Below, one piece after another: positions 35 through 14,911 of a DNA stretch of 42,188 nt. Both the position numbers and the translations under genes were made by a program. Position 1 is the first letter of the stretch, and each line of letters begins with the position of its first letter. The notes under the pieces were generated by a model. It saw only the letters and a list, made by a program, of their open reading frames with translations, ran no database searches and was not told the DNA's origin. This DNA comes from Candidatus Saccharimonadota bacterium (GTDB taxonomy: Bacteria; Patescibacteriota; Saccharimonadia; Saccharimonadales; Saccharimonadaceae): contig JAFONX010000008.1 in NCBI GenBank assembly GCA_017418275.1, positions 1-42,188 on the forward strand. Reading direction: 5' to 3'.

Positions 35-1552
35 ATGAATACGCTTTGGGTTGTCATAGCTCTTGTTGTTGGTATCGCGGTGGGCGCGGGTATTTTTGCC
101 ATCTATAACAAGAGCAAGGAACGTGGTGGTCAAAACAAGGCAGACGAAATTATTCGCAAAGCGAAGCATGAAGCGTCCGAACTTGTCTTGAACGCCAAAA
201 AGGAGGCAACAAAACTCACGGATCAGGCTAACCGTGAAGAGTCTGAACGTCGCAAAGAGTGGCAAAAAACCGAAAAACGCCTCACGGAGCGCGAAGATGC
301 TTTGGATAAAAAGCTCGATCAGCTAGATAAGCGTTCAGAAAAGCTTCGCCAGGAAGAGACTGAGCTCGAGGATCTCAAGGGCGAAATCCGTGACGTACGT
401 GACAAGGCTCAGGCTAAGCTTGAGAAAATCGCTGGTCTTACTAAAGAAGAGGCATACGACAAGCTCGTCAAAATGGTCGAAAAAGACACAAAGAAAGACC
501 TCGCGAATCTGATTATCAAACAACAAAACGCCCTCAATGATTCCGTCGATGAAACGGTCGAGGCAATTTTGCTGACCGCGATGGAGCGCATGAGTAGCGA
601 GGTTACGGCTGACCGTACTGTCACTAGTATTAAACTTCCTGATGACGACATGAAGGGCCGCATCATTGGTAAAGAGGGGCGCAACATTCAGGCCTTGCAA
701 CATGCAACCGGCGTCGACGTTTTGGTGGATGATACTCCGGGCATGGTAGTGCTTAGTTCTTTTGATCCGATTCGTCGTCAGGTAACACGTTATGCGCTGG
801 AGCGCCTTATGAAAGATGGTCGCATTAATCCGGCTAGTATCGAAGAAGCTGTTGCTAAGGCGGAGCGCGAAATCGAAAAGGAAGTAGTTCGCGCAGGCGA
901 AGACGCCGCACGCGAAGTCGGCGTCATTGGTATCCCACGCGAAATTTTGCACTTGCTTGGCGAATTGAAGTTCCGCACAAGCTACGGCCAGAATGTGCTT
1001 TTGCACTCGGTCGAAATGGCGCATATGGCAGGTATGATTGCTGAGGAAATTGGAGCTGATGTCAATATTGCTAAGACTGCTACTCTTATGCACGACATGG
1101 GTAAAGCTGTCACGCACAAGATCGAGGGCAAGCATGCTGAGATCGGTGCAGAGCTAGCGCGTAAATATGGTATGGATGAAAGAATTGTCCACGCCATCGC
1201 AGCACATCATGACGATATCGAGCCAACCACGCCAGAAGCAATCATCGTAAAGATTTGCGACGCAGTTTCAGCCGCTCGTCCAGGTGCACGCAACGTCTCT
1301 GCCGAAAACTTTGCCGAGCGCATGCGCGGTCTCGAAAACGTCGCAACCAGCTTCCCTGGTATTGACAAGGCTTACGCGATTTCGGCCGGTCGCGAAATTC
1401 GTGTAATTGTCTCGCCCAAAGCTGTAGATGATCTTACGGCGCTCAAGCTTGCGCGCGATATTGCCAACAAGATTGAGGCTACAATGCAGTATCCTGGTGT
1501 CGTAAAAGTGAACGTGATTCGCGAAACACGCGCGATTGAATACGCCAAATAG
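35..1552 (+). CDS. rny: Ribonuclease Y
   Basis: This is the membrane-anchored endoribonuclease that starts mRNA decay in many bacteria. All expected parts are present in order. One N-terminal membrane segment spans residues 3-23. A long charged coiled coil covers about 30-150. A KH RNA-binding domain carries GRIIGKEGRN at 208-217. An HD phosphohydrolase domain has the metal-binding HD pair at 353-354 and a further HH at 391-392. The length of 505 aa is close to the usual ~520. The ATG at 35 follows an AGAGGA ribosome site. A simple hairpin terminator follows at once, so it ends its transcript and is separate from the surface island downstream. Confidence 0.97.
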   Translation: MNTLWVVIALVVGIAVGAGIFAIYNKSKERGGQNKADEIIRKAKHEASELVLNAKKEATKLTDQANREESERRKEWQKTEKRLTEREDALDKKLDQLDKRSEKLRQEETELEDLKGEIRDVRDKAQAKLEKIAGLTKEEAYDKLVKMVEKDTKKDLANLIIKQQNALNDSVDETVEAILLTAMERMSSEVTADRTVTSIKLPDDDMKGRIIGKEGRNIQALQHATGVDVLVDDTPGMVVLSSFDPIRRQVTRYALERLMKDGRINPASIEEAVAKAEREIEKEVVRAGEDAAREVGVIGIPREILHLLGELKFRTSYGQNVLLHSVEMAHMAGMIAEEIGADVNIAKTATLMHDMGKAVTHKIEGKHAEIGAELARKYGMDERIVHAIAAHHDDIEPTTPEAIIVKICDAVSAARPGARNVSAENFAERMRGLENVATSFPGIDKAYAISAGREIRVIVSPKAVDDLTALKLARDIANKIEATMQYPGVVKVNVIRETRAIEYAK

Positions 1553-1590: not shown

Positions 1591-1632
1591 GTGGCCCAAG
1601 AGAAGACCTAATGAGACGAATTATTTTGCTTA

Positions 1633-1641
1633 TGCTAAAAT
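1633..1641 (+). promoter_or_regulatory. Extended -10 promoter of adhesin module A
   Basis: TGcTAAAAT occupies 1633-1641, nine bases before the ATG at 1651. There is no Shine-Dalgarno sequence between them, so the transcript should have almost no leader. The identical element with identical spacing precedes the paralogous module B. Confidence 0.75.
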
Positions 1642-1650
1642 AGATGTAAG

Positions 1651-2337
1651 ATGTCAGAATTAGGTTCAAATCAAGGTCAAGATGAAAACAAAAATGGTCC
1701 AGTTTTTGACTCGTCAAAACTGAACAAAGAACAAACGACCGAACATTTTACAAATGTTAAGGACGTTGAGGATCGTGCTAAAGCGGCAGAAAAAGCAAAG
1801 AAAGAAGCCGAAAAATCGGCAAACGAAGCACATGAGAAAAGCGTGCGCGAAGCGGCAAAGTTGCAGCAAAAAGCCGAAAAAACACCAAACAAAACTTCGG
1901 GCGCATCCGCAAGAAAGCGAAAATGGATTTTTGCTATTATTATCGCGGCAGTTATTCTAGCGACAATTGGTATTGTTTATTATGTCTCTAATTTTGGCAA
2001 ATCAAGTGAAGAGCTAGCTGAGAAGAAAGTAGAATCTTTTAAAGAAAGTTGTAGCGGTGAAACTCTCGAATCTGGCTATTGTCTTGAAGCGATTGAAGAT
2101 TTTGAGGATTATATCAGAAACGAGAGAAACCTCGATACGAAGGTAGTCCTTCTGGGAGAATATGAAGAATACGTAATGAGAGAATTCGGTAATGCCGGTA
2201 GGGTAAAAGATTTCTTGGACGACAATATTTCTGGCGATTATACTGAACGAAACAAAGAAGATCTCTGCGATATTTATAAGGATTTGTATTATAAAGTACA
2301 TGACTGGGAGGAATATGTTAAAGATTGCGAACTCTAA
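1651..2337 (+). CDS. Bitopic membrane protein, first gene of adhesin module A
   Basis: I do not recognise the family. The 228-aa protein begins MSELGS and has a Lys/Ala/Glu-rich, probably coiled-coil cytoplasmic part (about 35-80). A basic KRK precedes a single membrane segment at 91-113. The helical outer domain has four cysteines (134, 144, 206, 226), which could form two disulfides. A paralogue with the same architecture and corresponding cysteine spacing starts at 6155. The 3' end overlaps the start of the adhesin gene by 23 bases, so the two are probably translationally coupled. I infer that the protein is a membrane partner, anchor or secretion helper for that adhesin. This rests on genome context only. 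Confidence 0.8.
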   Translation: MSELGSNQGQDENKNGPVFDSSKLNKEQTTEHFTNVKDVEDRAKAAEKAKKEAEKSANEAHEKSVREAAKLQQKAEKTPNKTSGASARKRKWIFAIIIAAVILATIGIVYYVSNFGKSSEELAEKKVESFKESCSGETLESGYCLEAIEDFEDYIRNERNLDTKVVLLGEYEEYVMREFGNAGRVKDFLDDNISGDYTERNKEDLCDIYKDLYYKVHDWEEYVKDCEL

Positions 2338-4072
2338 AATGAGACATGGTGCTGCTTTTGCTATAACGCTGCTTGCTGGAGTTGCATTAATCAACAATTC
2401 GGCGCATGGTATTACGCAAGATGTTTCCGGTGATGCTGATTTCTGCAATAATTCTGGTCTTGCGTTTCAGTATGGACGTGAAGATTATGCGACGGTCTGT
2501 CAGTCCACTGGCGATGGGTATAGGCTATCTCAGTGGGTGTATTATTCGGTCGAGACGGAGCATTTGCCGACAGAAAAAGTTAATGGGAAAGATGTTTCTT
2601 ATATCCCGGCTATCGGTCCCGCCTTTTCCTATTGGGAGAATGGCAAAGAAACGGGCAATGGCATTACTGGCGAACGGGCAGCTCAGGATGGGTGGCTAAA
2701 AGTCGACGCTGATATGTCTAACTGTATTGTTGAAAATGGTGGTTTCTGGAGGAGGGGTTATTTCCAATATAAAGAATCGCCTTCGCCGACGTGGACCGCG
2801 TCTATTACGTATAAAGATAAAACTTTAAGCGCGTATCAAAAAGGTATTGCGCCGATAGGTTTTACGGGTAAAACCGACGCCACCGAAGTAGCAAAAAATT
2901 ATATTTCGGACGGCTTTATACTTAATGGCAATACGCATAGTTTTAAGCTTGGGCAGCAAATTCTTTATTGGAGGGAGCTAAACAAGGGCGCAGACAAAAA
3001 TCAAGCTTGGGCTTCGATAGATACGAGTAAAGGATGGATAGATGATGGGAAGGCCGAAGAATTGCTTCAGAGTTTTCCGAAGAAAAAGGGAAACCCTGAA
3101 CATTTAAAAAATACCGAATATATTTTTCCTGGTGGCGACAAGGAATTTACGGCTCTATTCTGCTATTCGGACGGATCTCCCTATAACGGAATGGTTAAAA
3201 TCGGAAACAGCGCTTCTTCTTTTGCCTACCACAAGAAAAAATATGGTAGTGCGTCTGAAAAGGGCGAAAATGGCAAAGTGGGCGACAATACAATTAATCT
3301 CGGCGTAGTACATGTTCAGGAATATGTGCCAGGCTATGTGTTTATGGGATTATCTAAGGATTCTGATAAGTCTGGACGTACTAGCTACGAGGCGACCATG
3401 ACATTGGATGGCGCTATTAAATACTCATACAAGGGAACAAAATGGGAGAGCGCCGATAGTGCTCATTCGAATAGTACTGAAAGTAATGTTTCTTCTGATG
3501 CAAGGCCAAAATTTACTCTTCATGAAGGTGATAATAAAATTTGTATCAATCTCAAATATAAAGAGAAACAAGGTGATAGCTCCAATCAGGAACTGCAAGC
3601 CTGTGGGGTGGTGAAGTATGAGCCTGCGACCGCGGATGTATACTCGGATACCCTAGGTACAATAGAATCTAAATACTTAGCTTCAGATAATACGAAGACT
3701 AACTACTCGTCTCATGAGGCGGGTGACGCAGATAGAGATATAACTTTTGATCCAGTCAAAGTCAATGCTGGTCCTATAAAACTTACTTGGTCTAACTATT
3801 TGGGCTATAAGAATCTCACGGGTACAACGCCAGTAAAAACAAATTACAGCATCAATAACTCCTTATTAGGTCAGAATGCTACGATTAATGCCTACTCTTC
3901 CTCAGGCAGTAGTGGTCCTGCAATTTCTGCGTATACTTATGAAACGAATACGATAGAAACCGGTGCTTTCCCGGGTGAAACGCATACGGAATGGAGAAGC
4001 ATCTATCATCCGTCTAAAGTTACTCCAAGCACTGGTGCGGCTGCTGCTGGCGCTGAAACTAAGAAGTCTTAA
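2315..4072 (+). CDS. Giant adhesin-like surface protein A, N-terminal part, ended by an in-frame TAA
   Basis: The family is not recognised. The start is placed at the ATG at 2315, three bases after GGGAGG. The same site and start context occur in paralogue B. The N-terminus looks like a Sec signal (MLKIANSK, then a hydrophobic stretch ending near NNSAHG). The mature part is Ser/Thr/Gly/Asp-rich and beta-type. Blocks shared with paralogue B include NGGFWRRGYFQYKE and KFTLHEG. The frame closes with TAA at 4070-4072. The same frame stays open on the other side of it (4076-6061) and continues the homology to B, which is one uninterrupted gene. It is therefore either the first half of a nonsense-disrupted gene or a product made separately. 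Confidence 0.72.
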   Translation: MLKIANSKMRHGAAFAITLLAGVALINNSAHGITQDVSGDADFCNNSGLAFQYGREDYATVCQSTGDGYRLSQWVYYSVETEHLPTEKVNGKDVSYIPAIGPAFSYWENGKETGNGITGERAAQDGWLKVDADMSNCIVENGGFWRRGYFQYKESPSPTWTASITYKDKTLSAYQKGIAPIGFTGKTDATEVAKNYISDGFILNGNTHSFKLGQQILYWRELNKGADKNQAWASIDTSKGWIDDGKAEELLQSFPKKKGNPEHLKNTEYIFPGGDKEFTALFCYSDGSPYNGMVKIGNSASSFAYHKKKYGSASEKGENGKVGDNTINLGVVHVQEYVPGYVFMGLSKDSDKSGRTSYEATMTLDGAIKYSYKGTKWESADSAHSNSTESNVSSDARPKFTLHEGDNKICINLKYKEKQGDSSNQELQACGVVKYEPATADVYSDTLGTIESKYLASDNTKTNYSSHEAGDADRDITFDPVKVNAGPIKLTWSNYLGYKNLTGTTPVKTNYSINNSLLGQNATINAYSSSGSSGPAISAYTYETNTIETGAFPGETHTEWRSIYHPSKVTPSTGAAAAGAETKKS

Positions 4073-4075
4073 GTT

Positions 4076-6061
4076 GTGCTCAAACTTCGTGCTGACGATC
4101 TTCAATGTGGTTATGATGACGCTCATATGTACAATATTGGCGTAGATAATGCGAAAGATTATCTTTGGCTCTCGATGCGACGTGAAGACAATGCAAAAGT
4201 GACAGTCGGCTCAGGCATGAACGATCAGGCAAACATGTGGCTTAACCCGGCTAATCGTATTCAAATCACTCAGACTGCCTGCTTCGGTAGCCAAATTGGT
4301 ATAGACGCTAGGGATAGAGGTGATGGCAAGAATAGATGGGTTCTCAATCCATGGACTGATATAGAAGACCATGTTAATAATACGGTGTTTAGTCTTGGTG
4401 GTGCTGGTTACGCTGCCATTAGAAACACGAATGCCTTTACGCATGAAGGTTCTGCGAGCTCTATTAGTTCTCAAGGCGGAAGCTCTTTCTATGCTTCTGA
4501 GGTTGGCAGTAAACCGACAGATCGTATCAGTAAAGGATATAAGCTCGAAGCGACCTCAAATGAGGGGGCAAAATCAATAGGTAATCTCGGTAAAAATTTA
4601 CAACTAACATTCTCTAGCCCTGATGGTCAAAGCGCGAGTATTAATGCGAAAATCCCTTACAACTATATTCTTGAGCCGAAAGTCTCGATTGGTAGTAGTG
4701 GTATTGTGACACTGGGCAACTCGAGTACCTTCACGATCACAATTAATAATAATGACACGCGCACTAACGAAAAAGTTCAATCTACGCCTTATCATACGAA
4801 TGTCAAACCAAACACGAGTGCTAGATATCTAAAATTTGCTGCGAATACAGAAACGACTACGCCAGAGTTGCTGCAAAGCATAAATGGGATGTTTATTCCT
4901 GGTGACCATACCGGCGATATTGCAATCGCTACTGGCCTGAGTGATATTAAGAACCCTGAAAGTGGCACAATTAGCGGACTACTCCCGAGTGGCGCCATAA
5001 AAAGTTCGGAACAATCCATTAAGGTTTCTTCAGATATCGCCGAAGATGGCTACAACAAAATCTGCGTAGCGCTCGCAGTATATCCGGCTGATAGCCACAA
5101 TAGTACGGACCCAGTAATAAATGACGACGATCAATCCGCTGCGCTGACGGATGGATTCGGTGGAGCCTTTACGCGCATTTCGGTCGCTTGTAAGACTGTT
5201 GGTAAATTCCCAAGCGCCAGTGTCGAGGGTAACGGAATCGTCACGGGTAGTATCATCACTGGTTCTCATACTGAATATGGCGGACGAAGCTTTGGCTCCT
5301 GGACAGAGTATGGTCTTGTTGCGAATAGCGTCGTAAATATCGCGAGCGGCGCAAGCTCTGCCTACGATAATCCGCAAACTTCACGCAATGCGTCCGTGTC
5401 ATACGATGGGGCTGGCCTTAAAATTGGCGACTTTGATTCAATTCAGACCCTTGGCAATATGAATAGTGGAATTGGCGCACGTAATGATGCCAAGGTATAC
5501 GCTGCACAGGCTCGGACCTATGCAAATAACGTCATAGCGACATTCTTTACAGGCGAAGCGTCTTCTACGTGTGTGCTGGGTTCTAGCTATGATGGCTGTT
5601 CGACTTTTGTAAATGCAAACTATAATGACGATGTAGTTATAAATTCGGCTTTTGCAGGAACTATTAACGATGCGGCTAATAACGGTCATGTGATCATTTA
5701 TTCGAAGCGTAACATTAAAATCTCAAATGCAGTGACAGAACTAAACGCCACTCTCATTGCGGATGGTAAGGTAGACACCTGCGAAGAAGCTGATCAAGGC
5801 GGAGATAATGAACAGCTCCTATATAATTGTTCGAATAGTCTTTTCATCAATGGTATCGTCTATTCTGAAAAGTCGATTGCGCTCGATCGTATCTATGGTG
5901 GTGGTAGTGTTAATGGAATGAACCTAGACGCGAATACGCTTATGCAACGCGCTGAAATCTTGAACTATGATCCAAAGATTGTAAGATGGAGTTACGATTA
6001 CAAGCGTCAGACGCAGCCGCTCACGACAACTTATATCGAGGAGCTTTCGACTAGGTACTAG
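4076..6061 (+). pseudogene. Adhesin-like surface protein A, C-terminal part, same frame after the TAA
   Basis: This 661-codon open frame continues the preceding gene in phase and aligns throughout with the C-terminal half of paralogue B. Shared blocks include the ADDL.CG..NAHMYNIGV region at its start, YPADSHN, SVEGNGI, and the end NYDP.IV.W.Y. The first possible start is a GTG at 4076 with no convincing ribosome site and no signal peptide of its own. If translated alone the product could not be secreted by Sec. The reading frame is otherwise intact over almost 2 kb, so the nonsense change is recent, is bypassed, or is a sequence error. A separate functional gene cannot be excluded. Confidence 0.65.
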
Positions 6062-6079
6062 CGTCTAGATATCTTTAGA

Positions 6080-6113
6080 AATACTAGCCATGAATGTATG
6101 GCTAGTATTTTGC
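6080..6113 (+). terminator. Intrinsic terminator of adhesin module A
   Basis: A perfect 12-bp stem, AATACTAGCCAT (6080-6091) with ATGGCTAGTATT (6098-6109), has a 6-nt loop and is followed by further T residues. Confidence 0.9.
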
Positions 6114-6136
6114 CCCTAAAATTATCCTTATGTTTA

Positions 6137-6145
6137 TGCTAAAAT
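6137..6145 (+). promoter_or_regulatory. Extended -10 promoter of adhesin module B
   Basis: TGcTAAAAT at 6137-6145 lies nine bases before the ATG at 6155. It copies the module A arrangement, and no ribosome site intervenes. Confidence 0.75.
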
Positions 6146-6154
6146 AAGCATAAG

Positions 6155-6850
6155 ATGTCAGAATTAGGTTCAAAAGAAGGTCAAGGTCAGGACGAAAAAA
6201 CTCCATTTTTCGACTCCTCAAAAATCTCAGATAAAAAAGCCACGGAGCACTTCGCAAACGTCGAAGGTGCTGCAGAACGAGCTAAACAAGCCGAACGTGC
6301 ACGGATTGCTGCCGAAAAAGAAGCGCGCGAAGTTCACGCCGCAGATATACGAGCTGCCTCGGAGCAGATGAAAAAAGCGCAAAAAGCCGAGAAAACATCA
6401 AATAAAGCTTCGGGTGTATTTGCGGGGAATCATAAGTGGCTTTTTATTATTATTCTGCTAGTAGCTATTCTAGCGACGGTTGGTATTGTTTACTACTTTG
6501 CTAGTACTAGCAAAACTAAGGAAGAACAAGTTGAAGAAAAAGTAGAATCATTCAAAGAGAACTGCAATAGTGAAATTCGTGAAAACGAATATTGTTTTGA
6601 TGCGCTTGATGATTTCGAGGCGTACATTAGTAATGAAAAAAATCTTGATGCAAAAGTTATCCTTCTGAAAAATTACGAAGAATATGTCATGAGTGAATTT
6701 GGCGATGCTGGTAGAGTAAAGGATTTCTTGGACGAAAATATTTCTGGCGATTATACTGAACGGAACAAAGAAGACCTCTGTGGGATTTACAAAGATTTGT
6801 ATTATGAATCAGATAACTGGGAGGAATATGTTAAAGATTGTGAACTCTAA
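6155..6850 (+). CDS. Bitopic membrane protein, first gene of adhesin module B
   Basis: This 231-aa paralogue of the protein at 1651-2337 has the same MSELGS start, Ala/Lys/Glu-rich cytoplasmic helix and single membrane segment (about 94-115). Its outer domain has the matching CX9C pair (137, 147) and two later cysteines. Conservation is highest in the distal part (AGRVKDFLD.NISGDYTERNKEDLC), which suggests that the outer domain is the functional contact surface. It overlaps the following adhesin gene by 23 bases, exactly as in module A. No catalytic motif is visible. The inferred role is a membrane partner of the adhesin. Confidence 0.8.
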   Translation: MSELGSKEGQGQDEKTPFFDSSKISDKKATEHFANVEGAAERAKQAERARIAAEKEAREVHAADIRAASEQMKKAQKAEKTSNKASGVFAGNHKWLFIIILLVAILATVGIVYYFASTSKTKEEQVEEKVESFKENCNSEIRENEYCFDALDDFEAYISNEKNLDAKVILLKNYEEYVMSEFGDAGRVKDFLDENISGDYTERNKEDLCGIYKDLYYESDNWEEYVKDCEL

Positions 6851-9800
6851 ACCCAGTGTTGCGATATTGATAATACTGGGGCTGTCTGCAGTTACGTTAT
6901 GCAGCTGTCGGACAGTTGTTTATGGTGAAACGCAGGAAGAATATGCGAGTTCGACTCGATGCTCTGAGCCAAGTGTGAGTTTTAATCTTGACACTTCTGA
7001 TGTTTGCCAATCAAATATCGGAATGGCGTATAGGTATTCAAGGTGGGTTTATTATACTATTGATAAAAAATACCTGCCCAAAGGAGACGACGGTAAGGAA
7101 TATATTCCACCGATCGGAATTTCGAACGGAGACGTTGGTATAGTATATGGCGACTCTACGACAAACAGCGCCTTGGGTGGTTGGCTAACTGTAGACCCTT
7201 CAATGTCTGATTGTATTATAGAAAATGGCGGCTTTTGGAGGAGAGGCTATTTTCAGTATAAAGAAGGTCTATTTCAGGAAAGAAGCTATAATGGAAAAAC
7301 ATTTGGTGCAACACAAGAGGGTATTGCGCCAATCGGGTTTACAGGGAGATCTAGTGATAATATTCATAAAGAATTTGATGTCGGTTGGAATGATTCGAGC
7401 CATTCTCTTGGCGAGAAGTATCCAGAAGAATTTACGGTTAATGGGGTAAAAAAGAGGTTTGAGCTTGGGCGACAGACGCTGTATTATGGCAAAAATACTG
7501 ACGTATGGGCTAAGATGGACAAGACTAAGGGAATGATAGGGGATAGCGAAGCCGAGGGGTTGTACAAGAAATTTAGCGGCGATTCTAAAGGTTTTGATTA
7601 TGGGGATTACTTTCTAAGCGATTATGATGCTGGTCTTTCGGGCAATCTATATGACGGCGGTGCAGGAAACGCGACTGTTCTATTTTGTTATTCGGAGCGC
7701 TCTCCGTTCAATGGCGAAGTTAAAATTGGTAGCAGTAATGCTTCATATGCTTATGAAAAGAAAAAACATGGCGAGGCGGCTAAATATGGTATAGAAAACG
7801 GTAACGGCTATAATAACAGCAAAGCGATTGATTTAGGTGAAGTGAATACTCAGGATTACACACTAGGCTTTGCGTATATAGGGGTTACCAAGGACGACAA
7901 CAAAAAATCTGGAAAAACGAGTTATAAGGCAAATATAACCCAAGATGGGTACATAAAGTATGCGTATAACGGAAAGGATTGGGTTGAGAGCACACGAGAA
8001 GACGACGGGAGAGAGATAAAAAATAATTTTTCAGCTACAAAAGCGCCTAAATTCACGCTACACGAAGGAAGAAATACACTTTGTATTCAGCTTAGATATA
8101 AAGAAAACGATAGCGATAAAAACTATCAGCTATTGCAAGCTTGTGCGTCCGTGAATCTCAATCCTGCGACTGCAGTAGTAAAATCAGACACCTTAGGTAT
8201 AATACAATCCAAAGACTTGGCTTCTGGCGGAGGGAATGGAATGTATTCTTCTCATGCGAATGGTAAGGAAGATGATAAACTAACTTTTAATTCCATTAAA
8301 GTTAATCCTGGTCCTATGGATATTACTTGGAAGCACTATTTAGGATATAAAGAACTCACTGGTTGGAATGCCTCAACGGTAAAAACGAAATATGGAGTCG
8401 TGAATGATGGGTCGTGGCGCGCTAGCCCGGCAATAATCAAAAAATATCAGGTGCCTGCAATTCCTGGCGGGTATAATTTAGAGGAATTCACGGCGCACAC
8501 TGGCGTATTTCCGGGCGAAACGCGTGAAGAGAAAAGATCTATCTATCATCCAATTAAGGTTCGCCCAGGTACCGGCGATTCTGCTTCTGATAGCAATGAT
8601 TATTCCTCTGTTACTCTCAATATTTACGCCGACGATCTTCGATGCGGTCTCGATAATGCCCATATGTATAATATCGGCGTGAATCACCCGGATGATTATT
8701 TCTGGCTTTCAATGCAGCGCGGAGATAGTAATAAGGTAACAGTCGGTTCTGGCATGGCTTCTCGGGCAAACTTGTGGTTTAACCCATCCGACCAGATGCG
8801 AGTCACTCAAGTGGCTTGTTTCGGTAGACAAATATTGGTGGACTCTAAGGATAGACTGAATAAATGGACTACTAATCCTTGGGAAATTAACGGAGCGACT
8901 CTAGACAATCATGCGGCTAATACGATGTTTAGACTTGGCGGCGATGGTCATGACGCTATTAAGAATACGGGAGTTTTTACAAATAAGAGTGCTGCGAACT
9001 ATGTGGGATCTCACGGTGGAAGCTCTTTGTGGGCTTCCGAGATTGGTGGCACATCATCTACGCCGTCCGTGCGTATCAGTAAGGGCTATAAACTTGAAGC
9101 AACATCAGAGACTAAGCAAATTAGTAACCTTGGCGAAGATTTGCAACTTACATTCTATAATCCTGGGGAGAGTCAAAGCGCCAGTATTAATGCCAAGGTT
9201 CCTTACAACTATTATCTTGATTTGTCTTTCTCTGGTTCCGACGGCTCGACCATCCTTGATGGCGTAACTTCATTTAAACCAAAGGTTACAAATGAAGGTC
9301 GCGATAATGCACAGCTCTGCGCTGGTCGTGAGAGCACCTGTAGCGCTGCAAGTATAGGTACGAGTACTAGAACAACGCATGCTGCTACGCTTATCTTTTC
9401 GGTAGACGACTCGTTCACTTACGAAGCATTAAAAAACAGCTTCGACTTCGCGGTTGATGGCAATAATACTACAGAACGTGGCATTCTCAATAGTGTCAAA
9501 TCAAGGCTTGGTAACGCCATAAATGTGATTGATGGCTCTTATTTCTCATATAAGGATTCTGGCAAAAAAGCAATAAGTACGAATGGGTATTGGAAGCTCA
9601 ACAATCCTACTACGGTCGATTCGCGAGATTATCCTGTCGGCACGAAGATTTGTGGTGTCGTAGCGGCCTATCCAGCAGATAGCCATAATACTGGCGATGG
9701 CAGAGCGATTGATGACGATGCTCAGATCGCTGCATTTAATAGTTATGGAGGAATCTTTAAAACCAAATTCAATATCAGCTGCCGCACCGTAGCTAAGCGT

Positions 9801-10784
9801 CAAACAATGAGCGTTGAAGGTAATGGTATTACTGCGCTCGGTCTAGTAAAATCGAGCAGGGTCTATTATGGTACGCAGAATAGAATCTTTGGAAGCTGGT
9901 CGGAATACCAGATAATTGCCAGTGGTAGCGATGGGAAGAGTGCCTCGTCTGGTGCGGTTACGGCTTATGGCCTTGATGGCACAGGTGGCACTACTGAAAC
10001 ATTTGCTACGAAAGCTGCCGATACGTCCTCGATATCTGGGAATGGTGAGTATACGTTACTTTTTCCTCAGTCTTTGGGTAATACGAAAGGAGATCCATAT
10101 GCTCCATACGAGGCAAAAATTAATTGGCAGTACTCCGAAAACCTCATAAGCCTCATCAAGAATAAATATGTCAGCTCAAATGGTTCTTGTGTGGATATTA
10201 CGGAAAATAGAAGAGCATTGAGGTGCTTTACTGGCGACCAAAGCTTAGGAAATAGCCAGGTTAGTATTGCGGATATGGATACAATTGTAATTTATAGTAG
10301 CGGAAAGCTGACAATTACTGAAAATCTTTCAATTCCGGACACTTCAAGACAGCTAATTATTATCGCAAAGAGTATTGAAATTGCGAACAACGTTAATGAA
10401 GTAAACGCCTGGTTGATTGTAGATGGCGGAGAGTTTAACACTTGCGCCGGTCATATCATCGACCAACCGAATCATCCGGAAAATCCAAATAGCTATGGTA
10501 ATATGGAGTTATTGCAAGAGTGCTATAATAACCTCAAGATAAACGGTCCGGTAATCTTGAAGACTGGAAAGGCTTCGGGGCATAATATGATTCAGCTACC
10601 GCGTACCTTTGGCGGTGGTTCGAAGCCTGACGGCGACAGCTTTGTTCGTGCGCCAGAAACCTATGTCCAACGTGCAGAAGTCTTTAACTATGATCCGGAA
10701 ATTGTAGAATGGGCGTACAATGAGTCGAGAAAAGAGCCGCAGATTGTGACGACCTATACCGAGTCATTGACACCAAGGCTTTAA
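6828..10784 (+). CDS. Giant adhesin-like surface protein B
   Basis: This is the intact paralogue (1318 aa) of the split protein A. The start at ATG 6828 is set by the GGGAGG three bases upstream and by conservation with module A. The N-terminus is a Sec-type signal. It contains TLCSC, which loosely resembles a lipobox but does not match it well. The long mature part is Ser/Thr/Gly/Asn/Asp-rich. It has the NGGFWRRGYFQYKE and KFTLHEG blocks in the first half, then ADDLRCG, YPADSHN and SVEGNGI. The last ~200 residues (IVIYSSGKLTI, LIIIAKSIEI, AWLIVDGGEF) resemble stacked beta-helix turns. No C-terminal membrane anchor or sorting signal is visible, so it may be held by the pilus tip or by the membrane protein encoded before it. 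The adhesin role is an inference. Confidence 0.78.
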   Translation: MLKIVNSKPSVAILIILGLSAVTLCSCRTVVYGETQEEYASSTRCSEPSVSFNLDTSDVCQSNIGMAYRYSRWVYYTIDKKYLPKGDDGKEYIPPIGISNGDVGIVYGDSTTNSALGGWLTVDPSMSDCIIENGGFWRRGYFQYKEGLFQERSYNGKTFGATQEGIAPIGFTGRSSDNIHKEFDVGWNDSSHSLGEKYPEEFTVNGVKKRFELGRQTLYYGKNTDVWAKMDKTKGMIGDSEAEGLYKKFSGDSKGFDYGDYFLSDYDAGLSGNLYDGGAGNATVLFCYSERSPFNGEVKIGSSNASYAYEKKKHGEAAKYGIENGNGYNNSKAIDLGEVNTQDYTLGFAYIGVTKDDNKKSGKTSYKANITQDGYIKYAYNGKDWVESTREDDGREIKNNFSATKAPKFTLHEGRNTLCIQLRYKENDSDKNYQLLQACASVNLNPATAVVKSDTLGIIQSKDLASGGGNGMYSSHANGKEDDKLTFNSIKVNPGPMDITWKHYLGYKELTGWNASTVKTKYGVVNDGSWRASPAIIKKYQVPAIPGGYNLEEFTAHTGVFPGETREEKRSIYHPIKVRPGTGDSASDSNDYSSVTLNIYADDLRCGLDNAHMYNIGVNHPDDYFWLSMQRGDSNKVTVGSGMASRANLWFNPSDQMRVTQVACFGRQILVDSKDRLNKWTTNPWEINGATLDNHAANTMFRLGGDGHDAIKNTGVFTNKSAANYVGSHGGSSLWASEIGGTSSTPSVRISKGYKLEATSETKQISNLGEDLQLTFYNPGESQSASINAKVPYNYYLDLSFSGSDGSTILDGVTSFKPKVTNEGRDNAQLCAGRESTCSAASIGTSTRTTHAATLIFSVDDSFTYEALKNSFDFAVDGNNTTERGILNSVKSRLGNAINVIDGSYFSYKDSGKKAISTNGYWKLNNPTTVDSRDYPVGTKICGVVAAYPADSHNTGDGRAIDDDAQIAAFNSYGGIFKTKFNISCRTVAKRQTMSVEGNGITALGLVKSSRVYYGTQNRIFGSWSEYQIIASGSDGKSASSGAVTAYGLDGTGGTTETFATKAADTSSISGNGEYTLLFPQSLGNTKGDPYAPYEAKINWQYSENLISLIKNKYVSSNGSCVDITENRRALRCFTGDQSLGNSQVSIADMDTIVIYSSGKLTITENLSIPDTSRQLIIIAKSIEIANNVNEVNAWLIVDGGEFNTCAGHIIDQPNHPENPNSYGNMELLQECYNNLKINGPVILKTGKASGHNMIQLPRTFGGGSKPDGDSFVRAPETYVQRAEVFNYDPEIVEWAYNESRKEPQIVTTYTESLTPRL

Positions 10785-10786
10785 AG

Positions 10787-10816
10787 AAAAATAGAGAGGG
10801 CAACCTCTCTATTTTT
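10787..10816 (+). terminator. Intrinsic terminator of adhesin module B
   Basis: A 13-bp stem AAAAATAGAGAGG (10787-10799) pairs with CCTCTCTATTTTT (10804-10816) around a GCAA loop. Confidence 0.92.
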
Positions 10817-10840
10817 AGTTCAAAATTTGCTTGAGTAGCT

Positions 10841-10868
10841 TTAACATTTTAAAATGCTAATGTATAAT
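10841..10868 (+). promoter_or_regulatory. Promoter of the minor-pilin operon
   Basis: TTAACA (10841-10846), a 16-bp spacer and TATAAT (10863-10868) make a good sigma-70-type promoter. The -10 box ends six bases before the ATG at 10875, which implies a leaderless first gene. Confidence 0.72.
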
Positions 10869-10874
10869 AATAAT

Positions 10875-11777
10875 ATGACGAAAAAGGCGAAGAATAAGCG
10901 CGTCTCAATTTTGAAAGGAATAAATAAATTCGCCGTAGGTTTCACGATTATCGAAACCATGCTTTTTCTTGCAATTGCCGGTCTGATTTTCGCCGGTATC
11001 GTGGCTAGTACGAATGGAGCTATACGTCAGCAACGCTATAAGGATGCTGTCCAGAGTTTTGCAGATGATTTACGTGATCTCTATTCTCTTGCTGAGAATA
11101 CTCAGGTACTAGACTATGGTGGCGGTACGGCAAAATGCGGTAATGAAAGTGCATCTGAAAGTGGTCGCGGGCGTAGTAACTGCTCGGTGTATGGAATTTT
11201 TGCCACAATTTCGTCATTGACTGATGGCGAAAAAAACATGGAAGCGCGTTGGGTGGTCGGTAGAGACCAAGCATTAATAAATGAGACGAGCGGAGATACT
11301 GCGTTTATGGGGAAAGCTGAAGTAAGTACTGAATTTATAGTTGAAGGCGGGGACGGTACTCTTAAGCCGCCTATTACGGCCAAAAGCCGTGATGTTCTAT
11401 GGGGTGCTGACGTGGGTCTTGCCTGCGATACTATTACTAATTCGATTACTAAGTCAAACGTGTGCGATGTGGGTAAGAAGCTATCGAAGAATAATTTTGT
11501 CGTTTTTCTTTTTATCTATCGCTCGCCAATTACGGGTTCTGTTAATACGCTGACGGGTACTTTCGAAAAGAATAAGCATGCTATTGTTAAAGACGGAAGA
11601 AATATATGGGACAATATTGAAACTCTGAGCCATAGTGATGTTAGTCTCTGCGTGACTACTGGCGCCGGTATGGGTGGTAAAAACGGACTACGTATGATTA
11701 CAATTGATGGTAAGGGTAGTAACTCTAATGCGGTCCGTTTAATCGAGGCGGATTCGGACGAGAATAAGTGTAATTAG
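10875..11777 (+). CDS. Minor pilin, FimT/GspH-like
   Basis: This type IV pilin-like protein (300 aa) has a class III prepilin signal. A basic leader is followed by G|FTIIE with Glu at +5 and a hydrophobic helix (MLFLAIAGLIFAGIVAS). The start is placed at ATG 10875 and not at the in-frame ATG at 10854, because the strong -10 box ends six bases upstream of 10875 and the earlier codons lie inside the promoter. By position in a four-pilin operon and by helix sequence it most resembles FimT/FimU/GspH minor pilins. After processing by a prepilin peptidase (not in this window) it would join the pilus or its tip. Confidence 0.85.
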   Translation: MTKKAKNKRVSILKGINKFAVGFTIIETMLFLAIAGLIFAGIVASTNGAIRQQRYKDAVQSFADDLRDLYSLAENTQVLDYGGGTAKCGNESASESGRGRSNCSVYGIFATISSLTDGEKNMEARWVVGRDQALINETSGDTAFMGKAEVSTEFIVEGGDGTLKPPITAKSRDVLWGADVGLACDTITNSITKSNVCDVGKKLSKNNFVVFLFIYRSPITGSVNTLTGTFEKNKHAIVKDGRNIWDNIETLSHSDVSLCVTTGAGMGGKNGLRMITIDGKGSNSNAVRLIEADSDENKCN

Positions 11778-11792
11778 GGTATTTGGTAAGAT

Positions 11793-12623
11793 ATGAAAGC
11801 AAAGAAAACAAAAGTGACACTCTATGGCGATACAATTGTGGAGGCAGTGGTTGCAATTGCAATCTACTCGATTGTTGCTGTGCTGTCTCTTAGCTTGATG
11901 AGCAGTGGCATATCGACTGCACAGCGCAACCTAGAGAGCACTATGAGCCGTGCAGTAATCGATTCCGAATCCGAACTGTTGCGCTATTATTATGAATCTT
12001 ATCTTGCGTCGCAAAGTAATAAAAATGACGATGCTAGATATGCTGCGATATGGAAAAAAATAAAGCCAAAAGACGACAGCACTACAGTCGAACCAAGCGA
12101 ATTGTATTACAATGAACCGGATGGCGAAGAAAATAATACTTGTGACGATTTGATTAATCATGATAAAGCACGGCTAGGGGCTATACAAGGAAGTGGCGCC
12201 ATTAGCATTTATGCTCTTTCGGGTAGAGGTGCACTTTCTACATTTAAGAAAAACATCAACTATTACGGCATTGGAAAGATGAATAATAATACTGCTTATG
12301 AGAGCCTTCAATTTTTTGATCAAATCATTGCCGCGCCATTATATCCACGCCTGACCTATAAAAACATGAGTATTAGCGGTAATACGATAGGAATTGTACC
12401 GAAGGATACTGCTACAGATTTTCTGGGTGGCGCTGGTGGCAAGGCTGATGGCGAAGAATACTATCAGTCTAGAGTGTCTTATCGAGCTGAGGGTGTTTGG
12501 ATTTTTCCAAAAAGAACAGATAAAGGCTACGATTTTTATGTGCGCACATGTTGGAACCCTGTGGGCTCCAACACGCCGTCGACTTTTATGAGTGTTGTGA
12601 GGTTATATGATGCAGGGGTGTAA
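11793..12623 (+). CDS. Minor pilin, GspI/PilV-like
   Basis: This 276-aa protein has a prepilin-type N-terminus. A short Lys-rich leader is followed by G|DTIVE with the conserved Glu at +5 and a hydrophobic helix (AVVAIAIYSIVAVLSLSLM). The residue after the predicted cleavage Gly is Asp where Phe/Met is usual. This could alter processing or mark a specialised tip subunit. The second position in the operon fits GspI/PilV. It lies 15 bases after the first pilin gene and overlaps the next by 17 bases, so all four are likely one transcript. Confidence 0.8.
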   Translation: MKAKKTKVTLYGDTIVEAVVAIAIYSIVAVLSLSLMSSGISTAQRNLESTMSRAVIDSESELLRYYYESYLASQSNKNDDARYAAIWKKIKPKDDSTTVEPSELYYNEPDGEENNTCDDLINHDKARLGAIQGSGAISIYALSGRGALSTFKKNINYYGIGKMNNNTAYESLQFFDQIIAAPLYPRLTYKNMSISGNTIGIVPKDTATDFLGGAGGKADGEEYYQSRVSYRAEGVWIFPKRTDKGYDFYVRTCWNPVGSNTPSTFMSVVRLYDAGV

Positions 12624-13560
12624 TAAAGAAAACTCAAAAAAGAACGGCTTCACGCTGATTGAATTAATGCTTGCAGTTGCCTTCTTAGGCACACTGCTGC
12701 TATCCGTCGCGATGCTTGCGATGCGTCTGATAGATATGTATACTAAGGGCTCGACGATGCGTGCCGTGAATTCTATCGGTGGCGCTATTGTTGACGATAT
12801 GCGCACGAGTATTACGTCTTCTAGTAATTGGACAAACCATATTGAAGACTTTGTGATAAACAGTGAGGGGATAGATAAAGCAAAAGAGGCCGAACGACAA
12901 TATTTCAGGCTTCATTATTATAAGACTGATGAAGTTGAAGGTAAAGAATTTGTGGATTATGGTGCGTTTTGCACAAACTCGTATACCTATGTCTTCAATT
13001 ATCAGGCGGCCATGCTAAGATATCGCGAAGGCGCAACCGATGGTTTTATAAAAATTGGTACGTCTACTAGTCAGCGTCCTTATGGTCTTGCGCGTATCAA
13101 AGATCCTGGTTGTAGTCAGTTTAATCTATTCATGATGAGTAAGGATGAGTTCGAGTCGTATCAAAAATCTTCGTCAACTGGTGGCACGCCTGATTCGTAT
13201 GACGATAGTAAAGTAATGTACGGCGAAAACGACTACTTTGAAGTATCGAACCTTGATAAGGAGGTTACAATTTTACTTGATGGTGGCAAAAGCGACGATA
13301 GTACTGATCTCCAACTCTACGACTTTTCGATTATGTCGGCAACCCAGAGTAATGTCACGGAGCAGGCAATTTACGATATAGCCTTCGTATTAGGTACAAC
13401 GCGTGGCGGTATTAACATTAATAGTACAAACAACTATTGCCAGAAAAATAGTGATGCTATAAAAAATGAAGACTACGCGGAGGCGTATGCTAACAACAGT
13501 GTTAATTATTGTTCGGTGAATCGATTTGAATTTGTGGCAAGACAAACAGGAGGCAAGTAA
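12607..13560 (+). CDS. Minor pilin, GspJ/PilW-like
   Basis: This 317-aa protein has the textbook prepilin motif NG|FTLIELMLAV, with Glu at +5 and a long hydrophobic helix. GAGG four bases before the ATG at 12607 supports that start; the next codon is also ATG. The leader is short and polar, as in prepilins. The large globular part (about 270 aa) and third position in the operon fit PilW/GspJ-class minor pilins. It overlaps the upstream gene by 17 bases, which suggests translational coupling. Confidence 0.88.
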   Translation: MMQGCNKENSKKNGFTLIELMLAVAFLGTLLLSVAMLAMRLIDMYTKGSTMRAVNSIGGAIVDDMRTSITSSSNWTNHIEDFVINSEGIDKAKEAERQYFRLHYYKTDEVEGKEFVDYGAFCTNSYTYVFNYQAAMLRYREGATDGFIKIGTSTSQRPYGLARIKDPGCSQFNLFMMSKDEFESYQKSSSTGGTPDSYDDSKVMYGENDYFEVSNLDKEVTILLDGGKSDDSTDLQLYDFSIMSATQSNVTEQAIYDIAFVLGTTRGGININSTNNYCQKNSDAIKNEDYAEAYANNSVNYCSVNRFEFVARQTGGK

Positions 13561-13575
13561 TTAATGGAGGTAAAA

Positions 13576-14874
13576 ATGTCCAAAGAACAAAAAACTAAAC
13601 AGGGTGTGGCGGCGATATATGTTGTAGTATTTACAACAATGCTTATCGGTATTATTACACTGAGTTTTTTGCGAATTATGCTTTCTGAGTCTGGTCGTAC
13701 CTTGAACGATACATTGTCTGACTCCGCTTACAACTCGGCGCTAGCGGGTGTAGAGGATGCAAAATATATCATTTCGCAATACGAAAAGAAGGCTGCAAGT
13801 GGTGAATCTTCGGGAAGTAATGCATTTATGAGTGCGATTGAGTCTGGCTCTGACGACTGTGATATTATTTCGAAGTCTATGGCTAGTCTTAGGGGCGATC
13901 CTGAGCCGGAGGGGGGTGAGGAGTCGTTTGGTACCGGTGACGCTCGTACCGATCAGGATCAAGCCTACACTTGTGTAAAAATTAGGCTTTCGGGCGATTT
14001 TAAGGGCACACTTTCCGCAAATAATCCAACCCTAGTTGTTCCTTTGAGGCCTAGCGGCAAGGGAGTCCAACAAGCTACATTTGTGGATGGCATTGAAATT
14101 ACTTGGACTATGGAATCGAGTACTACGGGAACTGGCACTGCGGGCTATCCTTTGTCAGAGCTTAGCGGTGATTTTGAGGGTCGCTCGGGTGGTTCTGGTA
14201 GTGTAGGCGGTATCGTGAACAACATGAAGGCGCTAAAAAACGATGCAGAACATAAAGTATTAGGTCAGAAAGGCATTAATCATGATGATGATATCGCAGC
14301 TATGAATGGCATGAGAGTAATGCTCGTGCAGTCGCCTTATGGAGATACTAATCCATACTATTATGCCTCGGTTGGCGACTCAACGAACCGTGGTACCTTA
14401 ATGCTTTTATCTTCGACCAAAACTGGCGTTAATGAAATTGGCTATCATCTCCCCACTGGACATAAAAACCCATTTGTAGAATCTGCGGATAAAACCTTGA
14501 ATGCGCCTTTGTCTGTAAAATGCGAAGATACTTGTAGCGTAAAAATTAAGCTTCCTAGACCAGTCGGTAGCTACGATCGTGATCCGAATAACTTCTTCCT
14601 AGTATTAAATCAGCTCTATTCAGAACCAGCCATCAAGGTGACGGTCAAGATGCTCGATGAGAAAGGGGAAAATATTGATTTCTTCAATGTTCAGCCGATT
14701 ATCGATTCAACCGGTCGTTCTGGTGACCTCTTCCGCCGTGTCGAAGCGCGTGTTGGCACGGATAACGGCGCATCACTCCTTCCGACTGCAGAACTCAGCT
14801 CGAACAGCACAATCGATAAGAGCTTCTATGTGACAAAGAACTGCATTAGCGGCACTACGCAATGTAATCATTAA
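13576..14874 (+). CDS. PilX/GspK-like pilus assembly protein
   Basis: This is the last gene of the pilin operon (432 aa). The N-terminus (KQGVAAIYVVVFTTMLIGIITLSFLRIMLSE region) matches PilX/GspK-type proteins, whose first helix lacks the strict FTLIE motif. A downstream SAYNSALAGVEDAKY region resembles the AF.AAE.A segment of PilX. The start is set at ATG 13576 because GGAGGT ends five bases before it; the ATG at 13564 lies inside that site. Family knowledge places such proteins at the pilus tip with PilV/PilW/FimU and the PilY1 adhesin. Here the two giant adhesins encoded upstream may take the PilY1 place. Confidence 0.78.
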   Translation: MSKEQKTKQGVAAIYVVVFTTMLIGIITLSFLRIMLSESGRTLNDTLSDSAYNSALAGVEDAKYIISQYEKKAASGESSGSNAFMSAIESGSDDCDIISKSMASLRGDPEPEGGEESFGTGDARTDQDQAYTCVKIRLSGDFKGTLSANNPTLVVPLRPSGKGVQQATFVDGIEITWTMESSTTGTGTAGYPLSELSGDFEGRSGGSGSVGGIVNNMKALKNDAEHKVLGQKGINHDDDIAAMNGMRVMLVQSPYGDTNPYYYASVGDSTNRGTLMLLSSTKTGVNEIGYHLPTGHKNPFVESADKTLNAPLSVKCEDTCSVKIKLPRPVGSYDRDPNNFFLVLNQLYSEPAIKVTVKMLDEKGENIDFFNVQPIIDSTGRSGDLFRRVEARVGTDNGASLLPTAELSSNSTIDKSFYVTKNCISGTTQCNH

Positions 14875-14880
14875 TAACAA

Positions 14881-14911
14881 AAAAAGAGATTGCCAAACGC
14901 AGTCTCTTTTT
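14881..14911 (+). terminator. Terminator of the minor-pilin operon
   Basis: Stem AAAAAGAGATTGC (14881-14893) pairs with GCAGTCTCTTTTT (14899-14911), with one G-T wobble. Confidence 0.9.

Follow-up and report, generated by a model that had tools for sequence, protein, structure and literature searches.

Proteobacterial type IVa pili carry a large secreted non-pilin tip adhesin (PilY1/PilC), whose gene accompanies those of FimU, PilV, PilW, and PilX, a quartet of minor pilins of the H-I-J-K type. How episymbiotic Patescibacteria recognize their host cells is largely unknown; in Saccharibacteria, main-text passages of PMC10633639 describe the type IV pilus (T4P) as essential (in S. epibionticum, genes SEML1_0104-0116, 0689-0693, and 0758-0768), and passages of PMC12206443 report that the T4P minor pilin PilX2 is required for full host binding in Nanosynbacter lyticus TM7x, whose T4P locus one comprises TM7x_00415-00475. 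Here, we analyzed a 42,188-nucleotide stretch of DNA (the window; contig JAFONX010000008.1 of assembly GCA_017418275.1) from a saccharibacterium whose assembly (0.81 Mb, 38 contigs) is 83% complete and whose closest named relatives in a GTDB genome scan were gut metagenome-assembled genomes, several of them from ruminants (for example, RGIG6504 from sheep rectum and RGIG4350 from the jejunum of roe deer). In the window, RNase Y is followed by two pairs of a small membrane protein (M) and a giant protein (G) and then by four pilins (H, I, J, and K), which an earlier note on this DNA had proposed to form a pilus-tip attachment system. Comparisons with a genus sample of 45 species (the locus was retrieved for most of these) and with 295 genomes of the order reveal a pilus link of G that is stronger than the window alone discloses: G is very probably associated with the T4P, and a role as pilus-tip adhesin is its best explanation, one that we consider somewhat probable.

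G constitutes a new, unnamed protein family in a role of a known kind. Like PilY1/PilC, most of its copies have a conserved C-terminus and a variable N-terminus, and on the simplest reading G would function as PilY1 does without homology to it by sequence. As the earlier note had supposed, the giants are not recognizably PilY1: neither they nor 27 family members had an hmmscan match to the PilY1 C-terminal domain, PF05567 (a search of the genus likewise matched 0 of 45 genomes, an uninformative result since the control genomes were silent too). Whereas PilY1 combines a von Willebrand factor A domain with a beta-propeller, G is predicted in low-confidence models to contain a beta-helix and immunoglobulin (Ig)-like domains, and it has a dedicated partner with a single transmembrane (TM) segment. 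The giants had also been thought to hold a genomic place matching that of pilY1; the G gene, however, precedes the pilin genes (and, in the ancestral order, pilM), whereas pilY1 comes after pilX. The analogy with the proteobacterial tip complex is best kept to function, given the lack of a sequence match, the different predicted fold, and the different gene position. Closer to hand, PilX1 and PilX2 of TM7x are, like G, host-binding candidates of a saccharibacterial T4P, in their case by way of a large C-terminal extension (passages of PMC12206443); they are, however, pilins with an N-terminal pilin helix, whereas G is a separate protein with a Sec-type signal. The C-terminal domain of G was also considered as a pilin extension elsewhere; in the 16 loci checked, the visible N-termini were of the secreted type and lacked a pilin helix. 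The main-text passages of the experimental T4P literature (PMC10633639 and PMC12206443) held no mention of the G gene, and a literature search returned no locus tags neighboring TM7x T4P locus one. If numbered consecutively, TM7x_00415-00475 and SEML1_0104-0116 would comprise 13 genes each, the same as pilM through K in the operon described below, which would place G just outside.

Of the 295 genomes of the order, 239 contained the C-terminal region of G and 253 contained J. In 45 of the 47 genomes of other genera for which the G-J distance could be read, G lay upstream of J on the same strand at a median distance of 10.1 kb (range, 9.8-15.1 kb), a spacing with a chance of about 0.012 per genome. 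Such loci, on inspection, each formed a single operon, [M]-G-pilM-pilN-pilO-small-pilB-pilT-pilC-pilA-pilD-H-I-J-K, so that G shares an operon with pilB, pilC, pilM, pilD, and the pilins (Pfam matches confirm the assignments of PilM and PilB for the window genome and of PilD for locus L074; the remaining pil names come from homology inside the set). G came first, directly before pilM, in all 8 of the first-inspected loci from other genera and families (L072-L076, L080, L084, and L085), and the same adjacency was found in five further loci: L136 and L137 (two more families of the order), L125 (another order of the class), and L135 and L138 (two families outside the class).

Within the genus, the gene order was RNaseY-(M-G)0-3-H-I-J-K, after which RNase H and more shared genes usually came; since this order recurs across the genus, the arrangement at the window is not due to chance. 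The two modules that the earlier note had described as paralogous are so (44% identity between giants A and B, E 2e-233; M_A and M_B are 50-82% identical, depending on the segment). The possibility that giants and pilins are never neighbors in related genomes, which the earlier note had named as fatal to its proposal, was refuted: besides heading the T4P operon elsewhere, G directly adjoined H in 25 of 38 judgeable genomes (counted from the locus map). RNase Y abutted H in the other 13 (in one, with an unassigned open reading frame [ORF] between them), and an alignment search located G elsewhere in 12 of these 13. Across the genus sample, J was present in 42 genomes and G in 41; both occurred in 40, J alone in 2 (G019 and G031), G alone in 1 (G030), and neither in 2 (G020 and G025, the latter 94% complete) (Fisher p 0.018). 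Relative to the window, M, G, H, I, J, and K were all approximately 28-33% identical versus medians of 82% for RNase Y and 73% for RNase H, which indicates that the whole M-G-H-I-J-K block evolves fast. That G and the pili share only a neighborhood and are functionally unlinked would fit the solitary M-G modules of some genomes and the frequent placement of the C-terminal domain away from T4P genes outside the order, but it is highly improbable given the operon co-location, the joint absence from G020 and G025, and the retention of G by nearly all genomes that lack a local M-G pair. One example of a pilin-free module is in G013, in which a second M-G pair adjoins RNase Y in the opposite orientation (L032, contig C8), while the pilins are on a separate contig with their own G (L031).

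In the window genome itself, the operon is broken. On its contig C28, the order is YchF-pilM-pilN-pilO-small-pilB; G is missing in front of pilM, and pilT, pilC, pilA, and pilD are missing behind pilB. Other contigs carry two genes for PilA-like proteins and one for a further PilB-like ATPase. The lack of G before pilM implies that G and H-I-J-K moved out of the operon. In this genus, the T4P operon has broken up, and the M-G/H-I-J-K block now found next to RNase Y represents a displaced remnant of it, which makes the neighborhood seen in the earlier note a meaningful one. Two other contigs of this genome carry further ORFs of note: one of 2,941 amino acids (L040, 10928-19753) on contig C25, shared with the lone second PilB-like ATPase (4499-6109), and two adjoining ones of 156 and 1,265 amino acids with near-identical starts (ITVHVVEPGSN..VPNTGLF; L041, 2057-6400) on contig C27, which also carries a PilA-like pilin gene.

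Nearly all G proteins had one N-terminal hydrophobic stretch (signal peptide) and no further TM segment, and no C-terminal TM segment or other anchor was present, in agreement with the earlier view that the giants lack an anchor of their own. An LPxRY-type tail or its LxPxL variant closed 52 of 53 G C-termini, the exception being a fragment of an interrupted gene, and no TM segment or charged tail followed the LPxRY-type tail. The giants had no match in Pfam, NCBIfam, or PDB sequences. AlphaFold2 models of giant B were of low confidence and beta-rich throughout (amino acids 640-1334, predicted local distance difference test [pLDDT] 61; amino acids 45-700, pLDDT 59). In VIA-align, the predicted C-terminal beta-helix, with a long helix alongside, resembled the fungal antifreeze protein 3vn3 (ice-binding fold; Z 12.9 over 184 residues, well above the 8.1 of the next row); at 11% identity and with no Pfam match, this is a resemblance of fold only, and ice binding is not claimed. 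Other regions aligned with Ig-like sandwiches (Z up to 8.1; up to 7.0 for the weak matches of the N-terminal half), which may reflect a common arrangement only. Foldseek returned no match to these models at E < 0.001, no evident enzyme fold was seen in them (the earlier note would have abandoned its proposal had the giants looked like enzymes), and PilY1 and propellers were absent from their fold-match lists, although one may still be present. In G528, another genome of the class (100% complete), a match to the C-terminal beta-helix domain (contig C2, approximately 316129-316602) lies within an uninterrupted frame 25,343 codons long, which would encode an extraordinarily large protein.

The prepilin motifs reported in the earlier note were borne out: H, I, and J have a class III leader with Glu5, as read directly from their motifs, and K has a hydrophobic, PilX/GspK-like N-terminus in which Glu5 is missing. 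H and I matched the NCBIfam profiles gspH and gspI, J matched the generic N-methylation motif (N_methyl), and K had no Pfam or NCBIfam match. That the best matches of H and I are GspH and GspI, together with a soluble and anchorless G, might suggest that G is either a substrate or a free surface protein, expelled by a pseudopilus that resembles that of type II secretion systems and is built with GspHIJK-like pilins. We consider this decidedly unlikely, because the operon encodes a retraction ATPase that those systems lack, PilT (a label that likewise comes from homology), the secretin PilQ is reported absent from candidate phyla radiation (CPR) bacteria (PMC6744442), and the C-terminus of G covaries with the pilins.

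This covariation, with operon synteny and co-occurrence, ties the giants to T4P as the earlier note had surmised. In 14 loci, the G C-terminus covaried with H, J, and K (0.54-0.57, p 0.001, controlling for RNase H and the G N-terminus) and only weakly with I. In 26 M-G pairs, the M ectodomain showed covariation with the N-terminus of G (partial rho 0.45, Mantel p 0.0005) but none with its C-terminus (partial rho -0.04). DNA adjacency would be expected to produce the same polarity, although J and K scored as high as H. In 45 of 50 cases, the gene immediately before G on the same strand encoded a TM-bearing protein (M), and most of these genes overlapped G or lay a few bases from it; the M ectodomain was tetratricopeptide repeat-like in ancestral-type operons (Pfam; L076, 6.7e-14; L075, 1.1e-8); the M proteins of the window had no Pfam match, being too diverged. 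Most within-genome pairs of G increased in identity toward the C-terminus, and their N-terminal halves were the most variable: in the G009 pair, the clearest case, identity was 14-33% across the N-terminal 600 residues and rose to as much as 98% at the C-terminal end, and the last 40 residues of the G013 pair were 92% identical. The two M-G pairs of G009 (L025, 16445-17485 and 11476-16440; L047, 12340-13350 and 7302-12386) have the M N-terminus and G C-terminus in common, but the C-terminus of M and the N-terminus of G are different, which looks like the exchange of a cassette across the M-G gene boundary. In the G tree, giants A and B grouped with copies of their nearest relatives on long branches, with support too low to date the duplication.

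A different pilus role for G, as a structural or assembly part at the cell envelope (e.g., a cell wall exit collar or a priming factor), would agree with its position as first gene before pilMNO, conserved even outside the class, with its pairing to a membrane protein, and with beta-helix and Ig domains that would suit a wall-spanning structure. Hypervariable N-terminal halves and two or three copies per genome would be unusual in a housekeeping collar, and we regard such a role as rather unlikely. From gene content, synteny, co-occurrence, topology, and covariation, we infer instead that G may be a Sec-secreted, non-pilin component of the saccharibacterial T4P. Its conserved C-terminal region (beta-helix and LPxRY-like tail) would dock on the H-I-J-K minor-pilin complex, a reading that the covariation supports and does not prove, and its variable N-terminal beta-sandwich region would be displayed outward to bind the host cell or another surface. 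M might hold or fold the N-terminal part of newly secreted G at the membrane before hand-over, and multiplication of M-G pairs beside H-I-J-K in this genus could provide several alternative heads for one pilus.

Several observations weigh against a tip adhesin. The surface or tip location of G and its binding are putative, the giant B models are of low confidence, and DNA adjacency and recombination blocks may partly explain the covariation. The published adhesin candidate of TM7x is another protein, the propeller pilin PilX2 (passages of PMC12206443). M-G is remote from the pilins in some genomes, and in 10 of 14 loci inspected outside the order, the C-terminal domain did not adjoin T4P genes and hence is not itself pilus exclusive. 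In the window, the A/B pair departs from most others (36-59% identity in the first 800 residues and 21-45% afterwards), and giant A, which the earlier note had taken as intact, carries a stop codon: a single TAA splits a frame (2300-6061) that is otherwise open for approximately 1,250 codons. This TAA is either a recent nonsense mutation or an assembly error. The coordinates of the locus are given in Table 1; the start of giant B is likely the ATG at 6828 or 6804, for a length of approximately 1318-1326 amino acids.

Table 1. Features of the RNase Y-M-G-H-I-J-K locus in the window (aa, amino acids; AF2, AlphaFold2; rmsd, root mean square deviation)
Feature	Position	Strand	Basis
RNase Y, conserved upstream flank	35..1552	+	TIGR03319 E 9e-184; synteny
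M_A, single-TM partner of giant A; charged cytoplasmic N-terminus, ectodomain ~120 aa	1651..2337	+	ORF, family, TM
Giant A, 5' part (590 aa), stops at in-frame TAA 4070-4072	2300..4072	+	ORF; paralogy to B
Giant A, 3' part (661 aa), same frame; beta-helix region and tail ELSTRY	4076..6061	+	ORF; C-terminus comparison
M_B, single-TM partner of giant B; TM ~aa 95-113	6155..6850	+	ORF, TM
Giant B, Sec-type N-terminus, no second TM; 1334 aa counted from GTG	6780..10784	+	ORF; paralogy; TM
Giant B aa ~808-1009, predicted Ig-like beta-sandwich region	9201..9806	+	AF2 model; VIA Z up to 8.1, weak
Giant B aa ~1013-1305, predicted beta-helix resembling ice-binding protein 3vn3	9816..10694	+	VIA Z 12.9, rmsd 3.8, 184 residues
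Giant B C-terminal tail LTPRL, variant of family LPxRY end	10767..10781	+	C-terminus comparison
H, GspH/FimT-like minor prepilin (GFTIIE)	10854..11777	+	TIGR01708 1.8e-6
I, GspI/PilV-like minor prepilin (GDTIVE)	11793..12623	+	TIGR01707 5.6e-4
J, GspJ/PilW-like minor prepilin (GFTLIE)	12607..13560	+	PF07963 above cut-off; in 42/45 genus genomes
K, PilX/GspK-like minor pilin without Glu5	13564..14874	+	Position conserved; no profile match

Taken to its full extent, the proposal is a tentative one: a Patescibacteria-wide family of secreted beta-helix proteins, heading the T4P operon before pilM, might form the host-recognition tip of epibiont pili, and in gut Saccharibacteria multiplied M-G cassettes might supply interchangeable heads on one minor-pilin base and so set host range. 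If G is indeed the tip adhesin, a gene next to pilM would give a direct handle on host recognition, and the variable N-terminal region of G would become a candidate marker from which host range might be predicted in metagenomes.

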